64,000 bases of DNA. It comes from Desulfatirhabdium butyrativorans DSM 18734. Its GTDB lineage: Bacteria > Desulfobacterota > Desulfobacteria > Desulfobacterales > Desulfatirhabdiaceae. The first letter of the stretch is position 1, and the number at the start of each line of letters is the position of its first letter. The notes under the pieces were generated by a model. That model was given only the letters and a program-made list of their open reading frames with translations. It ran no database searches and was not told the DNA's origin. Where the stretch lies: the NCBI RefSeq assembly GCF_000429925.1, contig NZ_AUCU01000009.1:1-64000 (forward strand). Direction: 5' to 3'. Positions 43,781-63,572 of the stretch are shown piece after piece. Position numbers and translations under genes: made by a program.

Positions 43781-43866
43781 CGGCATCTCCAAACGCCACC
43801 AGCCCGGTAGGATTTCGCATTTGGCGGGATGTGGCCATCCTTGGTTCGACGCGTTGCTTTATCTGG

Positions 43867-43886
43867 ATTCCGGCTTTCGCCGGAAT
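43867..43886. repeat. Short palindrome ATTCCGGCTTTCGCCGGAAT
   Basis: A perfect 8-base stem with TTTC loop, continued by GACG, belongs to a widely dispersed proteobacterial intergenic palindrome (Neisseria dRS3-like). A diverged relative (ATTAGCCGGAATGACGGG) is near 59787-59803. It lies in the 43781-43946 gap, in which I see no other feature. Confidence 0.7.
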
Positions 43887-43946
43887 GACGACCGAAAACC
43901 TGTTCGATATTTTGGCTTGTGGGCGAAATTCCGCCTCAGGAACGTC

Positions 43947-46900
43947 ATGATCCATACTTCCGAAAAACCCTGTTCCATCACCGTCGTCATTCCCTGCTAC
44001 AACCAGGGGAAATATCTTGCTGAATCGATTGGCTCCGTTCTATCCCAGACCATCGATGATGTGGAAATCCTCATCGTCAACGACGGCTCGACCGATCCAG
44101 AAACGATCGAAGTCCTGAATACCCTTGCCTACCCGAAAACCCGGCTCATCCACACGACCAACCAGGGGCTGGCTGCGGCGCGCAACAACGGGATTCGTGA
44201 GGCGAAGGGTCGCTACATTCTGCCGCTCGATGCCGACGACCGGATCGGTCCGACCTATCTCGAGCAGGCCGTTCGAATTCTCGATGAAAATCCGGGAATC
44301 GGCATCGTTTACTGCAGGGCGGCTTTTTTCGGAGCTGTCGAAAAGCCCTGGAATCTTCCGGAATTTTCGCTCTCGGAGATGCTGATCGACAACATCCTTT
44401 TCTGCTCCTGTGTCTTTCGAAAGGCCGACTGGGAACTGGTAGGCGGCTACCGGACGGACATGATCTACGGATGGGAGGATTACGATTTCTGGCTGTCCCT
44501 GATCGAGCGGGGGCGGCTCGTCCATCGCATCCCCGAAGAGCTCTTTTTCTACCGGATCAGCCCGGAGTCGATGCTTCGAACGAAAACCCGTGAACAGAAA
44601 ATCGAGATGTATGAGCGGGTGTTTCATCACCATCGGGAATTTTTCGAACGCAACATCCGCCTGTGGATCGATCGGCTGATCGATATTCCCGTGGATCGTA
44701 CCCGCAAATGGATGGCCCAGGTCTATGTGGATACCGGCATGGGGTTTAATGAAAAGCAGACGGTTGTGGCCTATGTCGGAGGGGATGAACGAAACCTCGA
44801 ATTTGATCTGAGCCGGTTTGATCGGATTCAGGGCATCCGGATCGATCCGGTGAACAGCCCAGCCGTGGTTTGCCTGTATCGGATTGTGCTGAAGGATGCT
44901 TCGGGGCGGGAGCAGACCGCATCCATCCGGTCTCACAACGCATTGCTGGAAGAAGACGGCCATTTCGTGTTCACATCGACAGATCCGCACTGGATCATCG
45001 AGGGTATCGATGGCCCTGCCCGGTCGATTCGGGTCGAACTTGATTTCCTGGCGATTGGTAACGAGGCGTTCGACCGCTTGTTGCACCATCAGAATGTACG
45101 GATCGCCGAGCTGCAGCAGACGTTGCATGAGAAATCCATTCTGGTTTCTCAGCAGCGCGACCGGCTGGTTCATCTGGAAACCGTTCTTCAGGACAAGGAC
45201 CGTGCCATCCAGGACAAGGACCGTGCCATCCAGGACAAGGACCGACATATTCGCAACATCGAGTTTTCGTTGAACCGTATCAAGGGCTCATTGATCTGGC
45301 GAACGGCCGATTTCTGCCGAAAATGGATGGTTTTCTTTCCGATCGATCTTGCCCGGAAATCGTTCAAGGCTGCCGATATCCTGCGAAGAGAGGGAATGCG
45401 GGGGCTTTTCCACCATCTGTGGCTGCATCTGACCAAGGCCGATCGGCAGCAGGCCGAAGAGCAGCCGGCGGTTGTGGGGATCGGTCTTACCCAGGCGGAT
45501 TATGAAGCTTGGATGGCGACCCGTCGCTTGAGCGACGACCGTCGGAACGAGATACGTCGTCAGATTGCCGCAATGCCTGTGAAACCGAAAATCAGCGTCA
45601 TCGTTCCGGTGTATGAGGTCGATGGCATCTGGCTGGAGAAGGCCATCCAATCGGTTGTGGATCAGGTGTACGACAACTGGGAGCTTTGCCTTGCCGACGA
45701 TGCTTCCCCGTCCGGGCATATTCGGGAAATTCTTCAGAAATGGGCGGATCGGGAACCCCGTATCCGGGTGCACTTTCTCACCCGAAACCGGGGGATTGCC
45801 CTTGCATCCAATGCGGCTGCTCAGATGGCGACCGGCGACTTCATCGGTTTCCTGGATCACGACGACACCCTTTCACCGGATGCCCTCTTCGAAGTGGCAT
45901 CGGTGCTGCAGCAGCATCCGCAAGTCGATCTGGTCTACAGCGACGAGGACAAGATGGACCTCGATGACCGCCGGATCGAGCCCTTTTTCAAGCCGGACTA
46001 TTCTCCGGATCTTCTCTTATCTCAGAATTACATCTGCCATTTCACCGTCGTTCGAAAAACCCTCTTCGATACCGTTGGCGGTTTCCGCGACGGGTTCAAC
46101 GGCTCTCAGGACCATGATCTCATCCTGCGGATCCTCGAGAAAACGGATCAGGTAGCCCACATTCCCAACATCCTGTATCATTGGCGAAAAATACCCGGAT
46201 CGACGGCAGCCGTCTATGATGCGAAGTCCTATGCCTGGGAAGCAGGCAGAAAAGCCATCGAGCAGACACTGAAGGCAAGAGGTGTCGAGGCTTCTGTGTT
46301 CTGTGGAAGATGGCAGGGAAGCTATCGGGTGAAACGACGAATTTCCGGTCAGCCTCTTGTTAGCATCCTGATTCCCTTTCGGGATCGGGCCGATCTTCTC
46401 GAAACATGCATCCTCTCCGTACTCGAAAAATCGAGCTGGCCGGCTTTCGAGATCATCGGCATCGACAACGGAAGCTCGGCACCTGAGACAGCGAAGCTCA
46501 TGCAGCGACTGGCCGATATGGACGCCCGGGTGACATTTCTTCCGTATCGAGAGCTGTTCAATTATTCCGCCATCAACAATTTCGCTGTTTCCCAGGCGAA
46601 GGGGGAACATGTCGTTCTGATGAACAGCGACATCGAAATCATCACCCCTTCTTGGATCGAGGCCCTGCTCGAGCACAGCCAGCGTCCGGAAGTCGGAGCC
46701 GTCGGAGCCAAGCTGTATTATCCCGACGGCCGGATTCAACATGCCGGAATCGTTGTCGGTATGTTCGGAAATGCCGGACATCCCCACCGCTTCTTCCAGC
46801 CGGATGACAACGGTTATTACGCCAGACCTCATGTCATCCACAACGTGAGCGCTGTTACCGCAGCCTTGATGATGGTGAAAAAATCCCTGTACGAAAGCGT

Positions 46901-47195
46901 CGGCGGTCTCGATGCGGCGCATTTGGGGATCGCTTACAATGACGTGGATTTTTGTCTCAAGCTTCGGCAGAAAGGTCTGCTCAACGTCTTTACGCCGTAT
47001 TGCGAGGCCATTCATCACGAATCCGCATCGCGTGGGTATGAATCTACATCGGAAAAGCGAGAGCGTTTCGAGCGGGAGCGGCAGCTGTTCGAAAGCCGAT
47101 GGGCTGGGGTCATCGATGCCGGAGACCCCTATTACAATGTGAATCTCAGTCTGAAATCCGAGGATTTCGCCATCCGGCTGGAGCGGGAACCATGA
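43947..47195 (+). CDS. Triple-domain GT2 glycosyltransferase
   Basis: A 1082-residue protein from ATG 43947 (AGGA upstream). Three GT-A domains are visible. Domain 1 (residues 10-230) has ITVVIPCYNQGKYLAESIG, ILIVNDGSTDP and LPLDADDRIGP. Domain 2 (from about 545) has ISVIVPVYEVDGIWLEKAI, LADDASPSG and GFLDHDDTLSPDAL. Domain 3 (from about 800) has VSILIPFRDRADLLETCI, GIDNGSSAPE and VVLMNSDIEIITP, ending NDVDFCLKLRQKG. Between domains 1 and 2 lie a lipid/glycan-locus beta region (DLSRFDRIQGIRIDP, FTSTDPHWIIEG) and a short coiled coil made of a 21-base tandem repeat (KDRAIQD, 45190-45250). It may act as a chain polymerase-like transferase. Confidence 0.88.
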   Translation: MIHTSEKPCSITVVIPCYNQGKYLAESIGSVLSQTIDDVEILIVNDGSTDPETIEVLNTLAYPKTRLIHTTNQGLAAARNNGIREAKGRYILPLDADDRIGPTYLEQAVRILDENPGIGIVYCRAAFFGAVEKPWNLPEFSLSEMLIDNILFCSCVFRKADWELVGGYRTDMIYGWEDYDFWLSLIERGRLVHRIPEELFFYRISPESMLRTKTREQKIEMYERVFHHHREFFERNIRLWIDRLIDIPVDRTRKWMAQVYVDTGMGFNEKQTVVAYVGGDERNLEFDLSRFDRIQGIRIDPVNSPAVVCLYRIVLKDASGREQTASIRSHNALLEEDGHFVFTSTDPHWIIEGIDGPARSIRVELDFLAIGNEAFDRLLHHQNVRIAELQQTLHEKSILVSQQRDRLVHLETVLQDKDRAIQDKDRAIQDKDRHIRNIEFSLNRIKGSLIWRTADFCRKWMVFFPIDLARKSFKAADILRREGMRGLFHHLWLHLTKADRQQAEEQPAVVGIGLTQADYEAWMATRRLSDDRRNEIRRQIAAMPVKPKISVIVPVYEVDGIWLEKAIQSVVDQVYDNWELCLADDASPSGHIREILQKWADREPRIRVHFLTRNRGIALASNAAAQMATGDFIGFLDHDDTLSPDALFEVASVLQQHPQVDLVYSDEDKMDLDDRRIEPFFKPDYSPDLLLSQNYICHFTVVRKTLFDTVGGFRDGFNGSQDHDLILRILEKTDQVAHIPNILYHWRKIPGSTAAVYDAKSYAWEAGRKAIEQTLKARGVEASVFCGRWQGSYRVKRRISGQPLVSILIPFRDRADLLETCILSVLEKSSWPAFEIIGIDNGSSAPETAKLMQRLADMDARVTFLPYRELFNYSAINNFAVSQAKGEHVVLMNSDIEIITPSWIEALLEHSQRPEVGAVGAKLYYPDGRIQHAGIVVGMFGNAGHPHRFFQPDDNGYYARPHVIHNVSAVTAALMMVKKSLYESVGGLDAAHLGIAYNDVDFCLKLRQKGLLNVFTPYCEAIHHESASRGYESTSEKRERFERERQLFESRWAGVIDAGDPYYNVNLSLKSEDFAIRLEREP

Positions 47196-48934
47196 AGCGA
47201 AATCTTGAAGCGCTTCGGCATACGGACTTCGACCTGGTCATTGTCGGAGGGGGAATTACCGGGGCTTGCCTGTGCCATGATGCCGCTCTGCGCGGCTGGC
47301 GGGTAGCGCTGCTGGAAAAAGGGGATTTCGGCGGATTCACGTCATCGGCATCCTCTAAGCTCATTCACGGAGGTATCCGGTATTTGCCCACAGGTCAGTT
47401 CTGGAAAGTGCGGGAGTCCTCGGAGGAAAGGGCTTTTTTCCACAATATCGCCCCGCACGCGACCCGAACCATTCCTTTTATCGTTCCGACCTTCGTGAGC
47501 GGCTGGATGAAAGGGCGGGCGGCCATGTTGGCCGGCCTGACCTTGTACGAGTGGATCGGCCTTGGATTGAACGACAGGATTCGGGATCCGGGCAAAAAGG
47601 TTCCGGTAAGCCGTTTCATCGGCCGAAACGAGCTGGTACGCCGCTTTCCGCTCCTTCATCGCTTGGACGGGTTGAGCGGAGCCTACATCCTGTATGAATC
47701 CCATATGGTCAGTTCGGAGCGGATGACGCTGGCGTTCGTCAAGAGCGCCTGTCGCAATGAAGCCGTTGCCGCCAACTACCTGCAGGTGACCGATTTCCTT
47801 CGCCTGCGCGACAAAACGGTCGTGGGGGTTGTGGCCGAGGACCGGTTCAGCGGGGAGCGGATCGAAGTACGGGGGCGGGTTGTCGTGAACGCGGCAGGTC
47901 CTCATATTCCGATACTGAACGATCTGCTGCCGGAATTGCGGCTCAAGAAGCGGCCTGCCGGGTATTCCAAGGGCGTGCATCTGGTGACCCGCCAAATTCT
48001 TCCCGATCATGCACTGACCTTGACGACCCGAAAGAAAATTCAAGGAGTCCTTACAAGAGGCGGAAGGCATGTTTTCATCATTCCGTGGCGCCACCGCTCT
48101 CTGATCGGCACGACGGATGTCCCTTTTTCTGGAAACCTGGACGATGTCCGGGTGACGGAAAGCGATATTCTCGACTTCATGGAAGATCTCAACGCCTGCC
48201 TGCCGGGGCTGAATTTGTGCCTCGAAGACGTTCACTACGCCTGGGCAGGCCTCTATCCTCTGCTCGTTCGGGAAATCAAACCCGATACCTATCAGGGAAC
48301 CGGCGAATATCAGATTGTGGATCACGAGAAGCAGGACGGTATCCCAGGAATCTGGACGGTTTTCGGCGCCAAGTATACGACAGCAAGACGGGTGACGGAA
48401 AAGGCGGCGGATCGAATCGCCGGGAAGCTGGGATGGGGGAGCCGCTGTCGGCCGACTCGTCACGCCCCCCTGGAAGGGGGCGCCATTCGGTGCGTGGAAA
48501 CGTATCGAAGGGATCTCCTGAACCGGTATGCGGGGCAGGTGGATGCCGAAGTGCTGGATCATCTGCTCTTCCTGTATGGAACGGAAACGGAAACATTGAT
48601 TCGTTATGGGATCGAAGAGAAGTCGCTCTTGGAGCCGATTTCACCGGATTTCCCGTCCATCCGCGCCCAGGTCGTCCATGCCGTCCGCTGCGAGATGGCC
48701 ATGACCCTTTCGGATGTGTTGTTCCGAAGAACCGATATAGCCACTGCGGGATATCCTGGACGCCAAACAGTCATTGATGTCGCCGAAGGGGTGGGTCGAT
48801 GCCTGGGTTGGGATGAAGGGCGCAAGGCGGTCGAAATAGAAGAAGTCGAACAGGCCTATGCAGTGATTCGCACCGTTCAGGGCAAAGGGGGAAGCCGCAG
48901 CCGTATCGGTGGTATGAGCGAGGAGGAAAGGTGA
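47192..48934 (+). CDS. FAD-dependent glycerol-3-phosphate dehydrogenase-like oxidoreductase (GlpD family)
   Basis: A 580-residue protein starting with an ATGA overlap to the GT2. The FAD-binding motif LVIVGGGITGACLCHDAALRG is at residues 16-36 (GxGxxG), followed by SSASSKLIHGGIRYL and VVNAAGPH, all hallmarks of GlpD. The region IIPWRHRSLIGTTDVPF and the C-terminal DUF-type domain also match. GlpD converts glycerol-3-phosphate to dihydroxyacetone phosphate at the membrane. In a glycan operon this is unexpected; it could supply or recycle a glycerol-phosphate-derived substituent, or oxidise another polyol phosphate. The stop overlaps the next start (GTGA). Confidence 0.85.
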   Translation: MKRNLEALRHTDFDLVIVGGGITGACLCHDAALRGWRVALLEKGDFGGFTSSASSKLIHGGIRYLPTGQFWKVRESSEERAFFHNIAPHATRTIPFIVPTFVSGWMKGRAAMLAGLTLYEWIGLGLNDRIRDPGKKVPVSRFIGRNELVRRFPLLHRLDGLSGAYILYESHMVSSERMTLAFVKSACRNEAVAANYLQVTDFLRLRDKTVVGVVAEDRFSGERIEVRGRVVVNAAGPHIPILNDLLPELRLKKRPAGYSKGVHLVTRQILPDHALTLTTRKKIQGVLTRGGRHVFIIPWRHRSLIGTTDVPFSGNLDDVRVTESDILDFMEDLNACLPGLNLCLEDVHYAWAGLYPLLVREIKPDTYQGTGEYQIVDHEKQDGIPGIWTVFGAKYTTARRVTEKAADRIAGKLGWGSRCRPTRHAPLEGGAIRCVETYRRDLLNRYAGQVDAEVLDHLLFLYGTETETLIRYGIEEKSLLEPISPDFPSIRAQVVHAVRCEMAMTLSDVLFRRTDIATAGYPGRQTVIDVAEGVGRCLGWDEGRKAVEIEEVEQAYAVIRTVQGKGGSRSRIGGMSEEER

Positions 48935-50238
48935 AACCTCTCCGAACGGTTGTGTCCCGAATGGCCGATGCGATGCGGAGCCATCCGAAGCTCTCGAGGA
49001 TGCTGCTGGCGGGTCTTTTGTTGCGGCTTCTGATCATGCCGTTTTTTGCGCATGTCGATTTTCTGAGCGAATATGCGCGGATTTTCGCCAGCCTCCGTCA
49101 GGGGAATCCCTTTCTGTATCCGTCCCGCCCGATCCTTACCCTGATCGAGCTGTTGTTTCTGAAACTGACGATTCCTCTTCTTCCCGAGCATGGCGAGATC
49201 CTGCTGCTGCGCAACGCCATGCAACCGACGGCAGGCCTTTCGGATTATTTTCTCTTCGTGAGTGATCCGGGCATCTACCGAACGCTGTTTCTGCTCAAAA
49301 TTCCCTATCTCCTCTTCGATATGGGGACGGCGCTCGTCTTGTTCCGGATGCTTTCCGGAAGCCGGTACCAGTGGACAGCGTTGCGGCTTTGGTGGTTCAA
49401 TCCGGTGACCATCTATGCTTTCTATATTTTCGGGCGCTACGAATCCATTGCACTGTTTTTCATCGCCCTGACCCTGGCCGCACTCCAGCAGGAAAAACGA
49501 ATCGCTGCGGCCGTCGCTTTCGGGCTTGCGATGAACTGTCGGGAAATCGTGTTCATGTACGCACCGTTGTTCATCCTGTCGTTATGGAGCGGATCGCTTC
49601 AGAAAAAGGACGTTCGTTCGCTGATCGTACCGCTTGGGATCGTGATCGGATTCATTGGATTGTCCGTCGGGATTCGCCATTTTTTCGGCAGCCACTCCCC
49701 CCTGTCTGAGGCTGGAAGAAGTGAAGCCGATTTTGGATTTGCCTTGTTCGGGATGCAGCATGGATGGCTGCTGCCGTTTTTCCTGTGGTACGGCATGGTG
49801 GGCATCTGGCTGTTTGAAACCCGCCAGCGCAATCCGATGATCCGATTCGGTGTGTCGGTCAATGCGGCGCTGATCGGATTTTTTCTGTTCGTAACCCACA
49901 GTGCCCATTATCCTTCCTGGATGATGGTTTTTCCGGCGGCATTGATGGCTGCCGGATGCAGGCCGGTCAGGGCGATTGTGTTGTTTTCGGCAGCCTGGTT
50001 CCTGTACTGGATGTTTCATACCGATGCAGGGGTGTTCACCCTGTTTCTGGCATCTCCGCTGACCGTCAACTTCTTCGGATGGGAAACCCTTCCGCAACGT
50101 TATGCCGAATGGATCGGAGACGCCCGCCTCCTTTCTCTGGACAGGCTGCAAGTGATCGTACACAATATCTATGCCTCCTGCCTCCTGTATTGGGCATGGA
50201 AAATTCTGCGAACGGATACCTATGACCCTGTTTCGTAA
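48931..50238 (+). CDS. Polytopic membrane protein, GT-C-like (copy 1)
   Basis: A 435-residue membrane protein with about ten helices, GTG start 48931 after GAGGAGGAAAG. Diagnostic stretches are LIMPFFAHVDFLSEYARIFASLRQGNPF near the N-terminus, FVSDPGIYRTLFLLKIPYLLFDMGTA, and WWFNPVTIYAFYIFGRYESIALFFIALTLAALQQEKRIAAAVAFGLAMNCREI (given in parts: NPVTIYAFYIFGRYES, GLAMNCREI), reminiscent of GT-C/DUF2029-type mannosyltransferases. A clear paralogue with the same segments is at 58379. It overlaps the envelope beta-module gene by 17 bases, a pairing repeated in the second copy. Confidence 0.7.
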   Translation: MKPLRTVVSRMADAMRSHPKLSRMLLAGLLLRLLIMPFFAHVDFLSEYARIFASLRQGNPFLYPSRPILTLIELLFLKLTIPLLPEHGEILLLRNAMQPTAGLSDYFLFVSDPGIYRTLFLLKIPYLLFDMGTALVLFRMLSGSRYQWTALRLWWFNPVTIYAFYIFGRYESIALFFIALTLAALQQEKRIAAAVAFGLAMNCREIVFMYAPLFILSLWSGSLQKKDVRSLIVPLGIVIGFIGLSVGIRHFFGSHSPLSEAGRSEADFGFALFGMQHGWLLPFFLWYGMVGIWLFETRQRNPMIRFGVSVNAALIGFFLFVTHSAHYPSWMMVFPAALMAAGCRPVRAIVLFSAAWFLYWMFHTDAGVFTLFLASPLTVNFFGWETLPQRYAEWIGDARLLSLDRLQVIVHNIYASCLLYWAWKILRTDTYDPVS

Positions 50239-51430
50239 TGCCTGGGGATGGATGTTTCTGCTTCTTGCCGCTTGGATCTTTCCATCTCCGGTGCGGTGTG
50301 AGGAAGCCGTCCTGGCGGCATTTTTGGAAAAGGCAGCGTGGCAACTTCACGATGTCCGCCAGGCCGAAGACGGTGCCTTCGAAATCGTCGGATCCGATCC
50401 CCAGTGGATTTCGCCTGCGATTCAGAAGCCGCTGACCGCCGTTCGGGGATTTTTCGGGGAACTCTCCTTCGAGAATTGTCCATCCGCTGTTTCTGTGCAA
50501 TTGTTTTGGGGAACCGATGAGAGCGGTTACACCGAAGCATCGAGCTATCGCTTTACGGCCGATCCCGACAAGGCGGGACGGCTCGCGTTCTTCCTGCCCT
50601 TCGATCCGGAATGGCTGGCCCATGCCGTGACGAAGTCGGCCCTTCTGCATCATCTTCGACTGGATGTCGATGCACCGGTAGGCAAAAGGCTTCGCATTCG
50701 GCAAATCGGTATTGTACAAACGTTTCAACCGGATCTGGCCCGCTGGATTCCCCCGGATCTCGTTTATCCCGTTCTGGAACGGGAAGTTCCATCGGATGTT
50801 TCCGAGATCGGCCCTTGGAGGGAGCATGACCTGATGCCGGATGGGGATGGGTTCTGGCGGGTGGCTGGTGAAGACCCGTTCTGGCTTTCTCCGAATATCG
50901 ACATTTTCCCCCGACGGGTGAAGGGGGTATTCGTCGAGATGGATGTTCAGCCGTCCGTTTCCTTGAAACGGATTGCGTTGCAGGTGTTCTGGAGAACGTA
51001 TGAATTGGATTTCAATGAAATACGGAGCTTTCGCTTGATCGTCCGACCCAGGGATGGTGCCGTGCGATTTTTCCTGCCGCTTCTCGTATTGCCGCCGGAT
51101 GATCTGCTGAAGCATCTGCGAATTGATCTGGACGGATGTGCATCGTGCAAAGTCCGGTTGCGTTCAGTGCAATTCGTGACTGGAGATCTTCGGGAATATC
51201 GGGCTTGGTTGCCGCGGCAGTTGATCTACGGCCTCGGGAAAAACGTTTATGGAAGGAATATTCTCGAGGATATTGCGGCCAATCTCCGAAGAGACAAGAT
51301 CTTTCTGTTGTTGTATGGATGCTGTATCGCAGGATGTGTGTGGCTTCTGTATCCTCTGCGAGGCCGAAAGCACCCGTCTGTCGGATCCCAAGATGCTACG
51401 GAGTGCAAGCATACGGCATCGGGATGCTGA
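50222..51430 (+). CDS. Exported protein of two beta modules with C-terminal membrane anchor (copy 1)
   Basis: A 402-residue protein from ATG 50222. A signal peptide (residues 1-25, ending VRCEE) is followed by two copies of a roughly 150-residue module. Module 1 has VGSDPQWISP, VQLFWGTDESGYTEASSY and LRLDVDA; module 2 has AGEDPFWLSP, LQVFWRTYELDFNE and LRIDLDGCASCKVRLRSVQFV. Near the C-terminus YGLGKNVYGRNILEDIA precedes a hydrophobic helix (IFLLLYGCCIAGCVWLLYPL). The module also ends the two AlgX-like proteins. It is probably periplasmic, inner-membrane anchored and glycan-binding; no known family was recognised. A paralogue is at 60061. Confidence 0.65.
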   Translation: MTLFRNAWGWMFLLLAAWIFPSPVRCEEAVLAAFLEKAAWQLHDVRQAEDGAFEIVGSDPQWISPAIQKPLTAVRGFFGELSFENCPSAVSVQLFWGTDESGYTEASSYRFTADPDKAGRLAFFLPFDPEWLAHAVTKSALLHHLRLDVDAPVGKRLRIRQIGIVQTFQPDLARWIPPDLVYPVLEREVPSDVSEIGPWREHDLMPDGDGFWRVAGEDPFWLSPNIDIFPRRVKGVFVEMDVQPSVSLKRIALQVFWRTYELDFNEIRSFRLIVRPRDGAVRFFLPLLVLPPDDLLKHLRIDLDGCASCKVRLRSVQFVTGDLREYRAWLPRQLIYGLGKNVYGRNILEDIAANLRRDKIFLLLYGCCIAGCVWLLYPLRGRKHPSVGSQDATECKHTASGC

Positions 51431-51498: not shown

Positions 51499-53361
51499 AT
51501 GTGCGGCATTTGTGGTTTCAGCTGGAACGATGCGGAGTTGATCCGTCGGATGAGCCGGCGGTTGATTCATCGGGGACCGGATCAGGACGGGCATTTCTGC
51601 TGTGACGGTGCTTCTCTGGGGCACCGAAGGCTCAGCATCATCGACCTGAGCCAGAACGGCAGACAACCCATGTTCAACGAAGACCGATCCCTGGTCTTGG
51701 TCTTCAACGGGGAAATCTACAATTTTCGAGAGCTTCGGGAAGAACTGCTTCAGAAAGGCCATGTTTTTGCGAGCCATTCGGATTCGGAAGTCATCCTGCA
51801 TGCCTGGGAGACATACGGTACGGGGGCGCTCGAACGATTGAGAGGCATGTTTGCCTTCGCACTGTATGAGGCGGCGTCCGGACGGATCTATCTGGTCCGG
51901 GATCGGATCGGGATCAAACCGCTGTATTATGCCGTTCAGAATGGACGGCTACGCTTCGCTTCGGAAATCAAAGCCATTCTGGAGGATGAGCGCATCGAGC
52001 GATCCCTCAATCCCCAGGCGCTTTACGACTATCTCGGATTTGAATTCGTTCCTGCACCGGATACGTTTTTCAAAGGCATTTCCAAAATTCCAGCCGGACA
52101 CTATTTCGTTTGGGAAAAAGGGCAGGGAAATCTGGTTCGCTACTGGGATCTGCGCATGAAGCCCGGAAGTCACAGACTTTCCTTCGATGAGGCGGTCGCC
52201 ACCGAGCGCAGACTTCTGGAAGAAGCCGTCGCAAGCCATTTGATCAGCGACGTCCCGCTCGGGGTTTTTCTATCCGGCGGACTCGATTCCAGTGCGCTGG
52301 TAGCCATGATGCGGCGGCGTATCACCGGGTCCCTGAAAACCTTTACGATTGGCTATCGGGATCCGTCCTTCAGCGAAACAGAATATGCCCGGATCGTTGC
52401 CGATCATTTCCAGACGGATCATCAAGTGTTGATGATCGACGATCTGAAGCCCGAGTATGTGGAGCAGGCGCTGTGGCATTTGGATGAGCCGATGACCGAT
52501 CTATCCGCCGTGCCGCTCTATCTGTTGTGTCAGCAGGCCAAACGCCATGTGACCGTATGTTTGAGCGGAGAGGGCGGAGACGAAAGTTTCGCAGGGTACG
52601 ACCGTTTCAAGGCAAGCCGTTTGTATCGCTGGTATTGCTATGTGCCGAGGGAGATTCGTGACGGTGTGATCGCCAAAATCGTGGATCGCTTGCCGGATCG
52701 TCCCCAGAAGAAGGGGCTGATCAACATGCTCAAGCGATTTGTGGAAGGCGCGAGGCTGCCCGACGAAGCCATGCACCTGCGGTGGCAATACTTCCTGCCT
52801 CCGGAAATGGTCGATCCATTGTTCAAACCCGATTTCCGGGAAAATCTCGTTCTGGATCCGTTCAGACAGATCCGGCAATATGCCGAGCGATGCGACGCCG
52901 AAGATCCGGTCAATCGTGAAGTGTATCTCGACATGCGTTTCATGATGACCGACAGCGTTCTGATGAAAGTGGACAAGATGAGCATGGCCAGTGCCCTCGA
53001 AATCCGGGTTCCCCTTCTGGATCATGTGTTCGTCGAATTCATGGCATCCCTTCCCGGAGACTGGAAGCTGAAGGGGCTGACGACAAAACATGTATTTCGG
53101 GAGGCATTGAAGGGAATCCTTCCCGACAAGATTGTGTATCGGGGAAAACAGGGATACAGCCTGCCGGTGAAGAACCTGCTGCGAAACGAGCTGAAATCGT
53201 ATATGGTCGATCTGTTGAAGTCTTCGGCCATCATCCGGGAAACGATGAACATCGACTTCATCGATCGGTTGATTGGCGAGCATCTTCAGATGCGGCACAA
53301 CCACAACCATATCCTGTGGGCCCTGATGAATGTCGCCATCTGGCATCTGCATTTCTTCTGA
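51499..53361 (+). CDS. asnB: Glutamine-dependent asparagine synthetase family amidotransferase (AsnB)
   Basis: A 620-residue protein of standard AsnB length. The mature N-terminus MCGICGF gives the nucleophile Cys2 of the Ntn glutaminase, with HRGPDQDG and FNGEIYN in the same domain. The synthetase domain has the PP-motif VFLSGGLDSSALVAMM for ATP pyrophosphate and CLSGEGGDESFAGYDRF further on. In polysaccharide clusters such enzymes often amidate sugar carboxylates or act on peptide-linked uronic acids rather than make free asparagine. That role here is inferred from context. Confidence 0.9.
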   Translation: MCGICGFSWNDAELIRRMSRRLIHRGPDQDGHFCCDGASLGHRRLSIIDLSQNGRQPMFNEDRSLVLVFNGEIYNFRELREELLQKGHVFASHSDSEVILHAWETYGTGALERLRGMFAFALYEAASGRIYLVRDRIGIKPLYYAVQNGRLRFASEIKAILEDERIERSLNPQALYDYLGFEFVPAPDTFFKGISKIPAGHYFVWEKGQGNLVRYWDLRMKPGSHRLSFDEAVATERRLLEEAVASHLISDVPLGVFLSGGLDSSALVAMMRRRITGSLKTFTIGYRDPSFSETEYARIVADHFQTDHQVLMIDDLKPEYVEQALWHLDEPMTDLSAVPLYLLCQQAKRHVTVCLSGEGGDESFAGYDRFKASRLYRWYCYVPREIRDGVIAKIVDRLPDRPQKKGLINMLKRFVEGARLPDEAMHLRWQYFLPPEMVDPLFKPDFRENLVLDPFRQIRQYAERCDAEDPVNREVYLDMRFMMTDSVLMKVDKMSMASALEIRVPLLDHVFVEFMASLPGDWKLKGLTTKHVFREALKGILPDKIVYRGKQGYSLPVKNLLRNELKSYMVDLLKSSAIIRETMNIDFIDRLIGEHLQMRHNHNHILWALMNVAIWHLHFF

Positions 53362-53406: not shown

Positions 53407-54387
53407 GTGAACATACTGGTGACTGGAGGGACAGGGTTTACCGGAAAGGCGCTGGTGCGCAGGTTGTTGCAGGATGGTCATCGGGTGGTTGCCCTGGATT
53501 ACAAGGAAGGGCTCAAAACCCAGGAGCTTCGGGACTGGGGGGCCAAGGTGGTTATCGGAAGCGTTACCGATCCGGAAGTGGTCGACCGATGCATGAAGGA
53601 TATCGAGGTAGTCCACCATCTGGCTGCAGCGTTCCGGGAACTGGACGTGCCCAACCGGTATTATTACGAGGTCAACGTCGAAGGCACCCGAACGGTTCTG
53701 GATGCCGCCTGGCGGCATGGTGTCCGAAAATTTATTTACTGCAGTACCTGTGGTGTGCATGGCAACATCGATCATCCCCCTGGCGATGAAACGGCTCCCA
53801 TTCATGCGGCGGATTATTATCAGCAGACGAAATACGAAGCCGAACCGGTCGTTCAGTCCTATTTCCGAAAGGGTTTGAAAACCGTCATTCTGCGACCTGC
53901 TGCGATCTCCGGCGATCCCGAACGCTTTTTCATGATCTTCAAGCGCGTCGCATCGGGGGTGTTCCCGATGTTCGGGGATGGAAAAACCCTCTATCATCCG
54001 TTGTACATCGATCACCTGGTGGATGCCTTCGTTTTGAGTATGGCGGAAGGCAAGGGGGACGGAGAAGCCTACCTCATCGCAGACGAGCATTATCTGACCA
54101 TCGAGGAATTGGTCCGTCGAACGGCCAAAGCCTTGGGGGTACGGGTCAAAATTCCCCATTTTCCCCTTCTTCCTGTCATGATTGCGGGTCATGTGTGTGA
54201 AGCCGTTTGCAAACCCTTTCATATCGCTCCGCCGATTTTCCCGAGAAGGGTGGACTGGTTTCGGCAGAACAGAGCCTTTAAGATCGACAAGGCGAAGCGG
54301 GATCTGGGATATCGACCCACGGTCGATATCGACGAAGGGTTGAGACGGACGGCGCAGTGGTATCGAGAAGAAGGGCTTCTTTCGTGA
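53407..54387 (+). CDS. NAD-dependent SDR (epimerase / 3-beta-HSD-like), copy 1
   Basis: A 326-residue extended SDR starting at GTG 53407 with GAGGAGA seven bases upstream. The NAD motif is TGGTGFTGK; the catalytic triad's YQQTK lies near residue 145. HHLAAAFRELDVPNRYYYEVNVEGT is characteristic of 3-beta-HSD and sterol-type or hopanoid-type nucleotide-sugar SDRs. The C-terminus CEAVCKPFHIAPPIFPRRVDWF is shared with the 62589 gene. It probably modifies a sugar nucleotide or a lipid-linked intermediate. Confidence 0.82.
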   Translation: MNILVTGGTGFTGKALVRRLLQDGHRVVALDYKEGLKTQELRDWGAKVVIGSVTDPEVVDRCMKDIEVVHHLAAAFRELDVPNRYYYEVNVEGTRTVLDAAWRHGVRKFIYCSTCGVHGNIDHPPGDETAPIHAADYYQQTKYEAEPVVQSYFRKGLKTVILRPAAISGDPERFFMIFKRVASGVFPMFGDGKTLYHPLYIDHLVDAFVLSMAEGKGDGEAYLIADEHYLTIEELVRRTAKALGVRVKIPHFPLLPVMIAGHVCEAVCKPFHIAPPIFPRRVDWFRQNRAFKIDKAKRDLGYRPTVDIDEGLRRTAQWYREEGLLS

Positions 54388-54452: not shown

Positions 54453-55454
54453 ATGGATAAGCATTCGGAAACCGTTCGTACGCGAAAGAAATGGCTTTGG
54501 TTGAAGCTCTGTTTCGGGCTGGGGACGTTTGCCCTGTTGTTCTGGCTCTTCGATCCGAAAGCCACCCTGTCGATGTTGGCCAAGGCCAGCGTTCCCCACC
54601 TGTTTCTGGCGTTGCTGAGTTGTGTCGTCGTTCTGATGGCCCGATCTCTGCGTTGGCTTGTGATCATGCGGGACATGGGGTTTCAGGGCCGATTCTGGCG
54701 GATCGTCGAGATCTATGCCATCAGCCTCTGGTTCAATACCTTCCTGCCTGGAAGCGTCGGAGGGGATGCTTACAAAGTGTACGGTCTGATCCAGGATGGT
54801 TCCAAACCGATCCAGTCCTTCGCGACGGTTCTGATGGAACGGTTGAGCGGGCTGGGGGCGCTGATATCGATCGCCATTTTCTCGGTGATCGGGTTTGGCC
54901 ATCTGATGCCGATCCCCTCCTGGATGCTGCTCAGCCTCATTCTGATGGTTGCAGCTTTAGTGGTCGGGATCCTGTTTTCGGTACGATTGATTGAACCGGG
55001 AGCGCTCTTATTTCGGAAAAGATTCCCCCGGATTTCGCAGCGGTTGACGGATGAGCGAATCCGGCTGCTGGCGGATGTATTTCACGATTTGATCCGCAAC
55101 AAGCGCCTTCTTTGGCGTGCCTATGTTCTAGGCTTGCTGCTGCAGCTTGTGGTGCTCGTTTCCTATTATGTCGTATCCCTTGCACTGAACGAGCGGATAT
55201 CCATTCTGTTCTTTCTGATCTTTTTCCCGTTGATCGAGATCGTTTCGCTGATTCCAATCACCGTGAACGGCATGGGAATCCGGGAGTTGATGCTCGCCGT
55301 TTTTCTGCAATATGCGGGGGTAGGTCCTTCCTATGCCATTGGTTTTTCGATTCTTCTGCGACTCATCCTGGTGGTGCTGGCTCTTGCGGGAGGCCTGCTG
55401 CTGCTGGTGAGGCCGGGAACGGTTGGAAATCGGTCGGAGAATGTGCCCAAATGA
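54453..55454 (+). CDS. UPF0104 / lysylphosphatidylglycerol synthase transmembrane-type flippase-like protein
   Basis: A 333-residue protein with eight or so hydrophobic segments. NTFLPGSVGGDAYKVYGL followed by VLMERLSGLGALI, and NGMGIRELMLAVFL near residue 275, are the family hallmarks of the LPG synthase TM domain (UPF0104). Members without the synthase domain are thought to flip or transport lipid-linked substrates. In this operon it may move a lipid-linked sugar across the inner membrane. It ends in an ATGA overlap with the acyltransferase. Confidence 0.85.
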   Translation: MDKHSETVRTRKKWLWLKLCFGLGTFALLFWLFDPKATLSMLAKASVPHLFLALLSCVVVLMARSLRWLVIMRDMGFQGRFWRIVEIYAISLWFNTFLPGSVGGDAYKVYGLIQDGSKPIQSFATVLMERLSGLGALISIAIFSVIGFGHLMPIPSWMLLSLILMVAALVVGILFSVRLIEPGALLFRKRFPRISQRLTDERIRLLADVFHDLIRNKRLLWRAYVLGLLLQLVVLVSYYVVSLALNERISILFFLIFFPLIEIVSLIPITVNGMGIRELMLAVFLQYAGVGPSYAIGFSILLRLILVVLALAGGLLLLVRPGTVGNRSENVPK

Positions 55455-56206
55455 AAAAAACCCATGTGTCGGTTACAGCGGCATCCAGTGCGATCGATCG
55501 GTACCGTTCGGTGATCGTTGGAAATTTATCCACAGGGTATCTGATCCGATATGAAGGCTCGATGTTGTTGTCCGCAATACCTGGGGCTGCCGGAATATTC
55601 CTTCGCTCCAGGATCTGGCCCCGGCTTTTCGGCAGTTGCGGAAAAGGCTGCCTGTTCGGGAGCCATGTGATCCTGCGCCATCCGCACCGTATCCATATCG
55701 GAGACCGTGTGGTGGTCAGCGACGGATGCATATTGGACGCACGCAACGACGAGACGGATGAAGTGATGGTTATCGGAAATGACGTGATGCTGTCGAACGA
55801 TGTCGGGATCCATTGCAAGGGGGGGAAGGTTTGGATTGGAGACAGTACCGGCATCAATGTTCAGACCGTCATTCAATCCGTGGACGGGAATCCCGTTCGA
55901 ATCGGAAGAGACGTCATCATCGGCCCGCGCTGTTATATCGTCGGTGGGGGCAGCTACCGAATGGATCGTCTGGATCTGCCGATGCGCCTTCAGGGAATCC
56001 GGCCGGACGGGGGGCTCGTCATCGAAGACGATGTGTGGCTTGGTGCCAATGTAACGGTGATGGGCGGTGTTGTCGTTCATACGGGCAGTGTTGTTGCGGC
56101 CCATGCCGTCGTGACGCATTCGGTGCCGCAACGGGCAATCTGCATGGGGATCCCGGCCCGAGTTGTCCAGATTCGGGGGCAAGGGGATGCCGTTCATAAC
56201 ACTTGA
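55451..56206 (+). CDS. Left-handed beta-helix (hexapeptide) acyltransferase
   Basis: A 251-residue enzyme from ATG 55451. The hexapeptide repeats run from about residue 70 to 235: IHIGDRVVVSDGCILD, VMVIGNDVMLSNDVGIH, VWIGDSTGINVQTVI, VIIGPRCYIVGGGSY, VIEDDVWLGANVTVMGGVVVHTGSVVAAHAVVTHSVP. This is the WbbJ/CysE type fold that O-acetylates sugars in the cytoplasm. The TGA stop (56204-56206) is the first three bases of a repeat family B element. An N-terminal tail of about 60 residues is not conserved. Confidence 0.88.
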   Translation: MKKTHVSVTAASSAIDRYRSVIVGNLSTGYLIRYEGSMLLSAIPGAAGIFLRSRIWPRLFGSCGKGCLFGSHVILRHPHRIHIGDRVVVSDGCILDARNDETDEVMVIGNDVMLSNDVGIHCKGGKVWIGDSTGINVQTVIQSVDGNPVRIGRDVIIGPRCYIVGGGSYRMDRLDLPMRLQGIRPDGGLVIEDDVWLGANVTVMGGVVVHTGSVVAAHAVVTHSVPQRAICMGIPARVVQIRGQGDAVHNT

Positions 56207-56514: not shown

Positions 56515-56555
56515 CACTGGATGAGCTTTACGAAAGCATGCTTCGACAAAACCAC

Positions 56556-58265: not shown

Positions 58266-58382
58266 AATGATGTGGACTTTTATCTGAAACTGCGGCAAAA
58301 TGCCCGCCTCAATGTCTTCAGCCTCGATTGCAAGGCGATTTATCATGAATCCGAAGACTTGGCCATTCGGCTGCCGGAGTGA
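58266..58382 (+). pseudogene. C-terminal remnant of the triple GT2 glycosyltransferase
   Basis: The frame from AAT 58266 reads NDVDFYLKLRQNARLNVFSL and DCKAIYHESEDLAIRLPE to TGA 58380. It matches the end of the 43947 gene (NDVDFCLKLRQKGLLNVFTP, YCEAIHHES and SEDFAIRLERE) with an internal deletion of about 50 residues. Upstream bases 58190-58265 may hold a further degraded piece. The TGA overlaps the GTG of the next gene, as in copy 1 where GlpD intervenes. Confidence 0.85.
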
Positions 58383-59728
58383 AACCTGTGGGCGAACGAA
58401 ATTGGATGGAACGCCTTCGAAATGCCTTTAGCCAGGATCATGCCGGACTGATCCCGCTGCTCGGCGCTGGCTTGCTGATCCGTCTGCTGCTGATGCCGTT
58501 TTTTGCTCATGTCGATTTTCTGTCGGAATACGGCAGGATGTACCAGATTGTCGCTACCGGAAAACCGACACTCTACCTGGGCCGGATCGTTGTCGTTTTG
58601 ATCGAGCAGATCTTTCTCCGGCTGTTTCTGCCGCTTTTACCCGATGCCGGTACCATGTTGCGTTTCAACGACATGAGACAGTCAACGGCCGGGCTGCCCG
58701 AATATTTTCTCTTCGTGAGTGATCCTCAGATTTTCCGAACCCTCTTTCTCCTGAAGATTCCCTACCTTCTCTTTGACCTATGTACCGCCTGGGTGCTTTG
58801 CCGGCTGATGTCCGGAAAGACCGGGCAGAAAACGGCCCTTTGCCTGTGGCTCTTCAATCCAATTACGCTTTATGCGTTTTATGTCTTCGGCCGTTTCGAA
58901 TCCATCCCGATTTTTTTTCTGGCGCTGACCCTGTTTTTGCTGAAGAAAGACCGCTGGATCGCTTCCGCTGTCGCTCTCGGACTTGCCATAAACTGCCGGG
59001 AAATTATCGTGCTCTATCTGCCCCTGTATGCATTTGCCCTTTTCGACAGGGATTGGAATCGAGGTGTCGTTGCGCGCCGGGTGATTCCCGCATGGATTGT
59101 CCTGTTGCTGATAACGATTCTGCCGTTTTGGATGAAAATGCACCTTGAAACACCGCTTGCGGCGGGTTCTGCCATGCAGGATATGGAAAGCGCTCAGGCC
59201 TTGCTCGGGATGCAGTTTCATTGGTTCGAGCCATTCGTCTTCTGCTATGCAGCCATCTGCCTGTGGTTGATCGAGGATCGCTCCCTGGATGCATTCGAAC
59301 GCTTTTTGACGGCCACAGGGCTTTGCATCCTGAGTTTCCTGCTGGTGGTCTCCCACAGTGCCCATTATGCATCCTGGATGGTGTTGTTCCCGATTGGCGC
59401 GCTGTATTTCGAAAAACCGCTGCTGAAACCTTTTCTGATCTTTTGTGCCTGCTGGCTGGTGACGTGGGCGGTGCAGACCGATGCCGGGGTATTTACCTTG
59501 TTTCTGGCTTCTCCGCTGTCCATGAATTTTTTCAGTTTCAAAACGCTGCTCGGGGTATATGAAAACACCGTCGGACCTCATGTGCCGATCAGTCGCAGCA
59601 TGCTCATCTGGTCGATGAAAACGATCTATGCGGCGTGCATAGCCTATCTGATGGTTCTTTTTTTTCGAAAGTCCGGTACTGGCCATGCATCATGTCCTGT
59701 TTATCGTGAAAATCAAGGTAGCCTGTAG
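58379..59728 (+). CDS. Polytopic membrane protein, GT-C-like (copy 2)
   Basis: A 449-residue paralogue of the 48931 protein, GTG start 58379 in a GTGA overlap with the GT2 remnant. The shared stretches are LLMPFFAHVDFLSEYGRMYQ, FVSDPQIFRTLFLLKIPYLLFDL and NPITLYAFYVFGRFESIPIFFLALTLF. The protein appears intact, so it may still work although its upstream partners are lost. The stop codon overlaps a 28-base palindrome. A beta-module gene follows after a repeat-filled gap, as in copy 1. Confidence 0.7.
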   Translation: MKPVGERNWMERLRNAFSQDHAGLIPLLGAGLLIRLLLMPFFAHVDFLSEYGRMYQIVATGKPTLYLGRIVVVLIEQIFLRLFLPLLPDAGTMLRFNDMRQSTAGLPEYFLFVSDPQIFRTLFLLKIPYLLFDLCTAWVLCRLMSGKTGQKTALCLWLFNPITLYAFYVFGRFESIPIFFLALTLFLLKKDRWIASAVALGLAINCREIIVLYLPLYAFALFDRDWNRGVVARRVIPAWIVLLLITILPFWMKMHLETPLAAGSAMQDMESAQALLGMQFHWFEPFVFCYAAICLWLIEDRSLDAFERFLTATGLCILSFLLVVSHSAHYASWMVLFPIGALYFEKPLLKPFLIFCACWLVTWAVQTDAGVFTLFLASPLSMNFFSFKTLLGVYENTVGPHVPISRSMLIWSMKTIYAACIAYLMVLFFRKSGTGHASCPVYRENQGSL

Positions 59729-59925: not shown

Positions 59926-60060
59926 CTCTCTGTGGCCGCCCTCCCGGAACCAGGGATCGTATTTTTATCCACGAGGGCGGTGACCCTCGCCATGAACATG
60001 TATCGAAAAAAAATTCGCCTGGGCGTTTTGCAACGCCTTCAAAGGTGGTTATCGCCTCGA

Positions 60061-61251: not shown

Positions 61252-61321
61252 GACGTCATCAAAATGTCTTGCGGCAAAAAATGGTGGATGGGGTCCACTC
61301 CGTTTGGAAAGAGGGGATGCC

Positions 61322-62575
61322 GTGACCGATCCTACCAAAGGAAATGAGGGAAATACGAGAACGGATGACCTGTTGTCATCTCGGCCCGTTGTGGTCCATA
61401 TCGCACCGACGCCTTTCTTTGCCAATCGCGGTTGCCATATCCGCATCGAGAACGAAATCCGGGCGCTTCGATCCCATCCGTATCGGATCGTTGTGGTGAC
61501 CTATGCCCATGGAAACGATCCGGACGGTATCGATGTTCGCCGCATCCATGCCATTCCCGGATATACGAAAACCGATGCGGGCTATTCCCCGTTCAAGTTT
61601 CTGGCCGACATTTTCTTGTTTTTCAAGGTCCTTGCCGTTTGTCGGTGCGAAAAGCCCGTTGTCCTGCATGCCCACCTGCACGAAGGCGCCTTGATCGGTT
61701 GGGCTGTCTGTCGCTGCCTGGGCTCGCCTAAACCGGCTCTGGTCTTCGACATGCAGGGGAGCCTTTCGGGGGAGCTTGCAGCCTATGGGGCTTTTGGCGA
61801 AAACTCTCCCCTGTTGCGGGCATTCGAATGGATCGAAGGCCGGATCAGCCGGATGGCGGATTTCGTGATTTGTTCTTCGTTCAACAGCTTTCGCTGTCAC
61901 GAGCGGTTCACGCATGGAGGGGTCCCCGCGGAAATTTTCACGGACATGGTGCCGGAGCGGTTTTTTCAGGAACCGGATCGTGTCCGTCTCCGGCAACGGC
62001 TTGGTATCCAGCCGAACCAGCGGGTGCTGATCTATACCGGGGGGCTTCTGCCTGCCAAGGGGTTGGATGAACTGCTTGCCACTGTTCGGATGCTTCTTGA
62101 AAGGCATGACGATCTGGTGTGTATTCTGGCAGGATATCCGATGGATCGGGTGAAGGAAGAAGCCCAAAATTGCCATTGGGGCGATCGTTGCATCATACCT
62201 GGCGAAGTCTCTTACGATCGACTTTCCGACTGGCTGGGAGCAGGCGATGTCGCCATCGATCCAAAGCCGGATACAGCAGGGGAGGCCAGCGGCAAGATCG
62301 TTCACTACATGGCAGCAGGACTTCCGGTGGTGTGTTTCGATTCGGCATCCAACCGTACGCTTTTGGGGGATGCAGGCTACTATGCCGACAGCAGCGAAGG
62401 AGTCTTTGGATTGGTTGCGGCTGTCGAGAGGGTGTTGTCAGATGGGGCGGCGGCGAGGCAAAGAGGTATCGCCGGAAAACGGCGGGCGCAGAAGACCGTG
62501 TCGCCGGGCGGTGTCGGGAAGCGGCTTGCCGATTTATATCGTCGTCTTGCGCAAGGGCGATTCGGTGGTCCATAA
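61322..62575 (+). CDS. GT4 glycosyltransferase
   Basis: A 417-residue GT-B enzyme from GTG 61322, preceded by GAGGGG about six bases upstream. VVVHIAPTPFFANRGCHIRIENEI opens the acceptor domain; RVLIYTGGLLPAKGLDELLATV and VAIDPKPDTAGEASGKIVHYMAAGLPVVCFDS form the donor domain with the expected acidic residues. In copy 1 the corresponding place between beta-module gene and SDR is held by asnB. It probably adds one sugar in the cytoplasm. Confidence 0.82.
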   Translation: MTDPTKGNEGNTRTDDLLSSRPVVVHIAPTPFFANRGCHIRIENEIRALRSHPYRIVVVTYAHGNDPDGIDVRRIHAIPGYTKTDAGYSPFKFLADIFLFFKVLAVCRCEKPVVLHAHLHEGALIGWAVCRCLGSPKPALVFDMQGSLSGELAAYGAFGENSPLLRAFEWIEGRISRMADFVICSSFNSFRCHERFTHGGVPAEIFTDMVPERFFQEPDRVRLRQRLGIQPNQRVLIYTGGLLPAKGLDELLATVRMLLERHDDLVCILAGYPMDRVKEEAQNCHWGDRCIIPGEVSYDRLSDWLGAGDVAIDPKPDTAGEASGKIVHYMAAGLPVVCFDSASNRTLLGDAGYYADSSEGVFGLVAAVERVLSDGAAARQRGIAGKRRAQKTVSPGGVGKRLADLYRRLAQGRFGGP

Positions 62576-62588
62576 AGGAGGCGTACTT

Positions 62589-63572
62589 TTGAAAACAGCA
62601 TTGGTGACAGGTGCCAACGGCTTTGCAGCGAGCGTGTTGTGCAGAAAGCTCCTCGAGCGGCAATACCGGGTTCGGGGGCTTGTCCGAAAGGGAGCGGATC
62701 TGCGCCTGATCGACGGTTTGGATATAGAACTCTTCTATGGCAACCTCGGTGGTCCGGAACCGCTGATCGAGGCTTGCAGCGGCATCGACGTGGTCCTTCA
62801 CCTTGCGGCGGCCTATCGAAAGGAAAATGTTCCCCGGAAAACCTTCTGGGATGTCAACGTCAACGGGACCCGAAAAGTCCTCGATGCCGCTGTTGAAAAC
62901 GGTGTAAAGCGTTTTGTGCATTGCAGCACGATCGGCGTTCAGGGCGATATCAAGAATCCGCCTGCAACGGAAGAGCATCCCTTCGATCCCGGGGACGCCT
63001 ATCAGCGCTCGAAACTTGAAGGAGAGCTTCTGGTGCGCGAGACCTTCCGCAAAACGGGACTGGCTGGAACCATCGTTCGGCCCGTCGCCATCTATGGACC
63101 TGGAGACACGCGACTGCTCAAGCTCTTCCGGCATATCGACCGGGGAACGTTCCGGATGATCGGCTCCGGCCAAACCTGTTATCACATGGTTCATGTGAAT
63201 GATGCTGTTCAGGGCTTCCTTCTTGCCGCCGAGCATCCGAATGCCGTCGGCGAGGTCTTCGTGATCGGTGGGGAAAACTGGACGACTTTAAACGAATTGG
63301 CGGAGATGATCGGGGCCATTCTCGGGAAACCGGTTTCCAGGCAGCACATACCGGCCGGGCTTGTCTGGGCTGCCGCCGTTCTGTGCGAAGCCGTCTGCAA
63401 ACCGTTCAACCTTCCCCCCCCGCTGTACCGGCGAAGGGTGAGCTTTTTTCTGAAACATCGCGCCTTTGATATTTCCAAGGCAAAACGGCTTCTCGGGTAC
63501 ACCCCACGGATAGGGCTTGAGGAAGGCCTGCGGCAGACCGCCGAATGGTATCGCAGGCAGGGGTGGTTGTGA
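62589..63572 (+). CDS. NAD-dependent SDR (epimerase / 3-beta-HSD-like), copy 2
   Basis: A 327-residue paralogue of the 53407 gene. AAGGAGG (62576-62582) sets TTG 62589 as the start; a longer frame upstream runs inside the GT4 gene. The NAD motif is modified to TGANGFAAS, missing the usual last glycine, and the catalytic YQRSK is present. The hallmark HLAAAYRKENVPRKTFWDVNVNGT and the C-terminal CEAVCKPFNLPPPLYRRRVSFF match copy 1. It probably acts on a sugar-nucleotide or lipid-linked sugar. Confidence 0.82.
   Translation: MKTALVTGANGFAASVLCRKLLERQYRVRGLVRKGADLRLIDGLDIELFYGNLGGPEPLIEACSGIDVVLHLAAAYRKENVPRKTFWDVNVNGTRKVLDAAVENGVKRFVHCSTIGVQGDIKNPPATEEHPFDPGDAYQRSKLEGELLVRETFRKTGLAGTIVRPVAIYGPGDTRLLKLFRHIDRGTFRMIGSGQTCYHMVHVNDAVQGFLLAAEHPNAVGEVFVIGGENWTTLNELAEMIGAILGKPVSRQHIPAGLVWAAAVLCEAVCKPFNLPPPLYRRRVSFFLKHRAFDISKAKRLLGYTPRIGLEEGLRQTAEWYRRQGWL

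Follow-up and report, generated by a model that had tools for sequence, protein, structure and literature searches.

A GlpD-like flavoenzyme clade and a companion short-chain dehydrogenase in polysaccharide clusters: a candidate redox step in glycan assembly

The gene discussed here occupies positions 47,192 to 48,934 of a 64,000-nucleotide stretch of Desulfatirhabdium butyrativorans DSM 18734 (contig NZ_AUCU01000009.1, positions 1 to 64,000; hereafter the window, on contig C3 in our numbering of this genome). Its product resembles the flavin adenine dinucleotide (FAD)-dependent glycerol-3-phosphate (G3P) dehydrogenase GlpD, and it lies inside a polysaccharide cluster. We find that it belongs to a separate clade of GlpD-like proteins from which two arginines conserved in ordinary GlpDs have been lost, and that the genes of this clade are accompanied by one particular branch of the short-chain dehydrogenases/reductases (SDRs). 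The reading we favour, to which we give a probability of about one half, is that of a GlpD-derived flavoenzyme dedicated to glycan biosynthesis, and not of a G3P dehydrogenase, which would oxidise a hydroxyl group of a precursor and leave the resulting ketone to be processed by the SDR. Loci (L), genomes (G) and contigs (C) of the survey are cited by number where they have to be told apart.

A GlpD-like clade without the pocket arginines

The gene and its two junctions are as follows.

47192..47195, forward strand: overlap with the upstream GT2 gene, ATGA, 4 bp
47192..48934, forward strand: GlpD-like FAD oxidoreductase of the non-canonical clade (group A), 580 aa, assigned from the open reading frame (ORF), Pfam, residues, model and tree
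48931..48934, forward strand: overlap with the downstream membrane-protein gene, GTGA, 4 bp

The start codon is the ATG at 47192, the stop codon ends at 48934, and the overlap with both neighbours announced in the preliminary description of this DNA is borne out on each side; the motif aggagg lies immediately 5' of the downstream membrane-protein gene (48931). The protein matches the Pfam families DAO (E 1.7e-44) and DAO_C (E 1.3e-23), and its AlphaFold model, for which 31 clade sequences served as input, has a mean pLDDT of 90.9. The best structural match of this model is the alpha-glycerophosphate oxidase 2rgh (Z 41.4, 2.2 Å over 520 residues), that to the complex of Escherichia coli GlpD with dihydroxyacetone phosphate (DHAP), 2r4e, reaches Z 39.8 (2.4 Å, 489 residues), and glycine oxidase trails with Z 26.7. 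A pseudogene is ruled out by the open 580-aa frame and by the 28 invariant columns found across the 31 of 33 clade rows that were aligned (L084 and L098 excluded). The protein falls far short of the NCBIfam cut-offs for G3P dehydrogenases and oxidases (223 against 360, 205.4 against 352 and 203.6 against 840 bits).

The FAD and substrate regions had both been described as intact, which holds for the first, whose GxGxxG motif, E33 and H50 are kept, and only in part for the second: R54, Y55, H233 and K354 (E. coli GlpD numbering) are present, but R317 has become Tyr355 and R332 a glycine. These two arginines are what we take, from structure work, to be the grip of E. coli GlpD on the phosphate of its substrate; conservation is the basis on which we assign them to a putative phosphate pocket here.

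To place the protein, 97 GlpD-like proteins were collected from the window, its relatives, a scan of genome contigs (the best 80 of 445 confirmed relatives) and E. coli K-12, the loci being picked by GlpD similarity alone; two short fragments (L116, L128) were removed ahead of counting, leaving 95. Thirty-three of the 95 form one clade (FastTree support 0.99), made up of groups A (6 members, among them the window protein and that of L040), B (12) and D (15), while 61 ordinary GlpDs comprise its sister group C (20) and 41 others. R317 is present in 61/61 ordinary GlpDs and in 0/33 clade members, R332 in 61/61 and in 1/33, to which L154, a clade member added later, must be joined. Columns 317 and 353 separate the two sets without exception, and column 332 with one. 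Position 317 is occupied by Tyr in all six members of group A, by Val, Thr or Ile in group B and mostly by Leu, Val or Thr in group D; of the three groups only A retains H233, K354 persists in A and D and has become Arg in B, R54 is found in all clade members and Y55 in all except one. In a set of 144 genomes, composed of the genome of D. butyrativorans and of relatives from its family and order, 56/56 copies of the R317 type retain R332, H233 and K354.

A second tree of 70 rows, from which the trait columns were removed, to which five members were added and in which group C and the other ordinary GlpDs were thinned to every second row, recovers the clade as 38 rows with support 100/98 and a single loss of R317. 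Its members come from several bacterial phyla and one archaeal metagenome-assembled genome. In comparison with GlpD and type 1 GlpO, the window protein thus shares DAO and DAO_C, the full-length fold (Z ~40), the FAD site, H50, R54, Y55, H233 and K354, and it differs by the lost R317 and R332, the scores under the NCBIfam cut-offs, the polysaccharide setting, the linked SDR and the separate clade.

The nearest R317-bearing relatives, those of group C (31-39% identity), keep R317, R332 and H233 in 20/20 and have a setting of their own, with a GlcD-like neighbour within 5 kb in 13/20 loci, against 10/41 for the other ordinary GlpDs and 0/33 for the present clade. This gene lies just downstream in L042, L043, L071-L074, L076, L077, L080, L087, L090, L092 and L105; the best NCBIfam match of the L042 neighbour is GlcD, under the cut-off, and we presume it to be alkyl-DHAP synthase (ADHAP-synthase)-like. 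The setting of group C suggests a supply of DHAP for ether lipids; for the clade such a role was rejected, a GlcD-like neighbour being found within 10 kb in 0/33 loci.

Genomic company and the SDR partner

Neighbours were counted with profiles derived from L044, L042 and window proteins and searched over all ORFs. These counts replace those from greedy gene calls (SDR within 5 kb in 19/33 against 1/61), which missed genes lying under longer antisense ORFs, such as that at 53407 in the window. An SDR stands within 5 kb at 23/33 clade loci, against 1/20 in group C and 0/41 among the others (p=3.9e-13, a value which, like the other neighbour p-values, is descriptive because the loci cannot be treated as independent samples of evolution). 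A GT4 glycosyltransferase gene is found within the same distance at 19/33, 0/20 and 2/41 loci, respectively; within 10 kb, an AsnB gene accompanies 14/33 clade loci, a hexapeptide gene 15/33 and a gene of the LPG_synthase_TM family (LPG_TM) 12/33, each against 0/61. At least one glycan-cluster marker lies within 10 kb at 27/33 clade loci, L040, L058, L062, L065, L089 and L091 having none. The median total flank was 12.9 kb for the clade, 11.9 kb for the 41 other GlpDs and 17.8 kb for group C. The gene's membership in a polysaccharide cluster, as first described, thereby receives strong support as a functional tie from the loci of relatives in many phyla.

The partner SDR is of the extended, HpnA/OleD/3beta-HSD-like type, with a TGxTGFTG-like motif and YxxxK. 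In a tree of SDR ORFs of at least 250 aa, from which the SDRs of L063 and L069 (under 250 aa) were excluded, one branch of 22 holds all 16 SDRs encoded within 1.5 kb of a GlpD-like gene, together with those at 53407 and 62247 of the window; at 20/21 clade loci with an SDR of tree length within 5 kb, the SDR falls in one branch shared with both window SDRs. Six other SDRs from the same clusters split from the 22-member branch (0.99), and SDR 53407 is sister (1.00) to the SDR beside the group-A GlpD of L059.

The association was also seen from the other side. With SDR 53407 as query, a gap separates the matches at 197 bits (E 6e-58) from those at 153 bits (E 2e-44). Of the 144 genomes, 11 carry an SDR above this gap, 11 carry the non-canonical GlpD and 10 carry both (p=1.6e-13); without the contig-end GlpD fragment of G040, 9 of 10 are common (p=9.5e-12). 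The R317-type GlpD shows no association with this SDR in the same 144 genomes (5/50, p=0.51).

Two observations on the neighbourhoods may be added. A second SDR of the cognate type occurs at G099:C147:34027-35004 (L185 8019-9065), some 30 kb from the GlpD-like gene on the same contig. In group D, the loci L060, L063, L064, L066, L067, L088, L089, L093 and L109 have a methyltransferase of a single family within 3 kb of the GlpD-like gene.

Proposed role and competing explanations

The scheme we propose involves the successive action of two enzymes. Most likely, the GlpD-like enzyme would act on a sugar or polyol unit borne by a larger precursor, oxidising one of its secondary hydroxyls and passing the electrons to the quinone pool; the SDR encoded at 53407-54387, with its second copy at 62247-63572, would then reduce or otherwise process the ketone, so that the polymer would receive a sugar that is inverted or modified. 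With the FAD site and the residues facing FAD kept, oxidation of a C-OH group should persist, and the whole fold retained in the model makes quinone coupling likely, GlpD being a monotopic quinone-linked membrane enzyme. The substrate is probably other than G3P; the loss of the arginines, and the fact that position 317 varies from group to group, are consistent with another substrate, perhaps one specific to each of A, B and D. The simplest joint reaction suggested by analogy is that one enzyme oxidises and the other reduces, as in DprE1/DprE2. A bolder proposal, which we consider possible but doubtful, is that the two enzymes would form a second, independently evolved stereo-editing pair for (lipid-linked) sugars in many phyla, in which a quinone-coupled, monotopic flavoenzyme derived from GlpD and an SDR returning hydride to the other face would parallel DprE1/DprE2 on an unrelated flavin fold.

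Several points weigh against the dedicated glycan role, besides the descriptive nature of the neighbour p-values. In the window the SDR gene lies 4.5 kb downstream of the GlpD-like gene, on the same strand and not adjacent, and 10/33 clade loci have no such SDR within 5 kb; five of these loci (L040, L058, L062, L091, L084) lie on short contigs or on contigs that stop right after the gene, which does not apply to L065, L070, L089, L109 and L112. Three of the four plasmid members (L152-L154: Antarctobacter SMS3, S2214, Indioceanicola) are without such an SDR within ~12 kb. The SDR of L049 scores like the cognate SDRs yet branches between them and the unrelated ones. Among the genomes, G126 has the SDR without this GlpD and G045 this GlpD without the SDR; the cut-off that defines the 11 SDR genomes was chosen after the score gap was seen, and the G040 fragment counted in the co-occurrence was found through the retrieval of the SDR and GT-C contigs of that genome. 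Finally, the window protein, like the rest of group A, retains H233 and K354, so that a small phosphate ester may still be the substrate.

This last point leads to the explanation that the enzyme is still a G3P dehydrogenase, which removes or recycles G3P for the glycan pathway or provides that pathway with DHAP. The complete GlpD fold (Z 41.4/39.8) and the R54, Y55, H233 and K354 of group A speak for it, as does the fact that this is the only GlpD of its genome, where neither a second DAO_C protein nor a second GlpD copy was found (97.3% complete). The preliminary description had seen in such an absence a sign that the gene would be the normal, housekeeping one; the absence is confirmed but is not decisive, because an R317-type GlpD (E<=1e-40) is present in 50/144 genomes and missing from 94/144, that of D. 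butyrativorans included, and because four genomes (G028, G059, G115, G131) carry both types. The three other strong DAO matches of the genome are best described as ThiO and L-pipecolate oxidase, both under the cut-off, and L-2-hydroxyglutarate oxidase. GlpK was not found in this genome, whose sole FGGY kinase scores 148.6 bits with the glycerol kinase model (cut-off 590) and best matches xylulokinase (240 bits, under the cut-off), and a GpsA-type NAD-dependent G3P dehydrogenase is present; a housekeeping GlpD was rejected on these two grounds and on the four genomes with both types. The loss of R317 and R332 and the G3P model scores of 223 against 360 and 203.6 against 840 bits likewise make a G3P dehydrogenase of the glycan pathway quite unlikely. 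No CDP-glycerol or lipoteichoic acid-type transferase and no cytidylyltransferase family was listed for the 38 ORFs of the window scanned with Pfam, a set that covers all but a few ORFs, short or alternative ones, and since the arginines are gone and the FGGY kinase is far under the GlpK cut-offs, the glycerol-phosphate or polyol-phosphate role suggested earlier is not supported.

A different possibility is that the enzyme stands in for DprE1: its substrate would be a polyprenyl-phosphate pentofuranose supplied by a UbiA/HAD pair, and the SDR would play the part of DprE2. If the proposed reaction holds, both systems would unite an FAD oxidase and an SDR reductase within a glycan pathway, with the SDR encoded close by; but the window protein has a DAO domain and the GlpD fold, not the FAD_binding_4/ALO fold (vanillyl-alcohol oxidase (VAO) type) that we take to be that of DprE1, and its SDR is extended, unlike the 244-aa DprE2 of its own genome. 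The own-genome DprE1 copy is matched weakly by PF04030. The three-component pentofuranose systems (UbiA, flippase and GT-C) are among the closest known ones: PMC11127046 describes UbiA/HAD/GT-C systems that include an SDR or DprE1/E2, likens the SDR process to DprE1/E2, and states that its authors knew of no further epimerase in systems for the glycosylation of O-antigen side chains. Comparable genes occur in L044 (HAD, UbiA, PMT_2), L046 (HAD-UbiA fusion, weak PMT_2) and L047 (UbiA). UbiA is found within 5 kb at 4/33 clade loci against 1/61 others (p=0.05), as well as on a cluster contig of G040, and three UbiA-bearing genomes (G099, G106, G059) have no DprE1 at 1e-10; none was found in any of the seven genomes tested besides that of D. 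butyrativorans. A missing DprE1 also fits plain ribofuranose, however, and 29/33 clade loci are without UbiA within 5 kb. The four UbiA matches of the window's genome lie on C1, C14, C66 and C71 and none on C3, that on C14 in a UbiA-DprE1-DprE2 operon, and L112, from Shimia, has both DprE1 and DprE2 near its GlpD-like gene. The polyprenyl-phosphate pentose case fits a minority of the clade loci and not the window's own contig; replacement of DprE1 was therefore rejected as a general explanation and is decidedly improbable for the window. It is also unlikely, although less far-fetched, that the FAD oxidation and the SDR reaction serve different sugars, or a moiety that is no sugar (e.g. ahead of methylation by a neighbouring methyltransferase), as independent tailoring steps linked by cluster membership only. 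Methyltransferases are indeed linked too (L044-type within 5 kb in 10/33, L060-type within 3 kb in 9/33, each against 0/61), but it is one SDR branch, and not any SDR, that accompanies the gene across phyla, and the co-occurrence in genomes is near one to one.

The literature searched, which did not reach preprints and most subscription journals, yielded no published account of a GlpD-like gene in glycan clusters, and three members of the clade found in named plasmid records bear no annotation beyond 'FAD-dependent oxidoreductase'. GlpD is the label that clade members receive at first glance; the residue columns and the linked SDR permit their re-annotation, and the dedicated glycan role predicts an undescribed redox step in glycan assembly. 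Should lipid-linked sugars prove to be epimerised by the pair, the reaction of DprE1/E2, which is a validated target against tuberculosis, would have been solved in a second way.

The polysaccharide cluster and related loci

The genes around the GlpD-like gene, all on the forward strand, are as follows.

43941..47195, +: multi-domain GT2 glycosyltransferase, the upstream overlap partner; start chosen inside the longer ORF 43719-47195
48931..50238, +: polytopic membrane protein that Pfam does not match; its topology alone makes it GT-C-like
50171..51430, +: protein of unknown family, present again at 59932-61251 (30%)
51499..53361, +: AsnB-like amidotransferase (GATase and Asn_synthase)
53407..54387, +: SDR of the cognate branch, extended, with the motifs TGGTGFTG and YQQTK
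54453..55454, +: membrane protein of the LPG_synthase_TM family, flippase-like
55112..56206, +: ORF with a hexapeptide-repeat acyltransferase part from about residue 120
58379..59728, +: membrane protein, the duplicate of that at 48931-50238 (46%)
61304..62575, +: GT4 glycosyltransferase
62247..63572, +: second SDR, same branch as 53407 (42%); this ORF start is probably too early, because the SDR match starts near 62598

The duplication of the neighbouring set noticed at the outset is confirmed by identities of 30-46% between the copies (48931/58379 46%, 50171/59932 30%, 53407/62247 42%, 38919/40465 42%). The cluster also contains many glycosyltransferases, AlgX-like and MBOAT acyltransferases besides the AsnB, SDR, LPG_TM and hexapeptide genes, and an ABC exporter composed of an ABC-2 membrane protein (11551) and an ABC ATPase (13136), whose Wzt_C match is weak and under the cut-off. 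The AlphaFold model of membrane protein 48931 (pLDDT 47.5) is too poor for use. Relatives of this protein and of its copy (48931-50238/58379-59728) occur in only one other genome of the 144, G040 (1e-8). The products of 56370-57941 and L055 1005-2414 are paralogues (55%) with no Pfam match, each gene being preceded by one of hexapeptide type, and this pair extends the pattern of the duplicated set past the window end. Elsewhere in the genome, UbiA, DprE1-like and DprE2-like genes stand side by side at G000:C14:61000-64000 (L149 7037-9968), away from the polysaccharide cluster; this UbiA resembles polyprenyl-phosphate phosphoribosyltransferase (PPPRS; 219 bits, just under the cut-off).

Among the relatives, the most compact cassette is that of G131 (L182), in the order GlpD-SDR-Hexa-LPG_TM-AsnB. 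In G040 one contig carries the end of the GlpD gene, a GT4 gene and that of a GT-C-like protein (43%), and another AsnB, the SDR (76% identical), Hexa, LPG_TM, UbiA and HAD. The members from Leisingera, Antarctobacter and S2214 are alphaproteobacterial plasmid copies, as is that of Indioceanicola, whose record carries no annotation. The Leisingera NJS201 plasmid encodes a methyltransferase, the FAD oxidoreductase, an epimerase and a GT4 and, farther along, an acyltransferase and LPG_TM, and the plasmid loci of Antarctobacter SMS3 and strain S2214 hold glycosyltransferases and an O-antigen ligase. The NJS201 copy (L151 12007-13502) is annotated as two overlapping coding sequences, possibly owing to a frameshift in the gene or in the sequence. 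In Shimia sp. R9_2 (L112 9863-17884), the GlpD-like gene is followed by genes for a UbiA-type protein of 496 aa whose N-terminus is HAD-like, a protein of 139 aa, DprE1, DprE2 and a protein of 544 aa.

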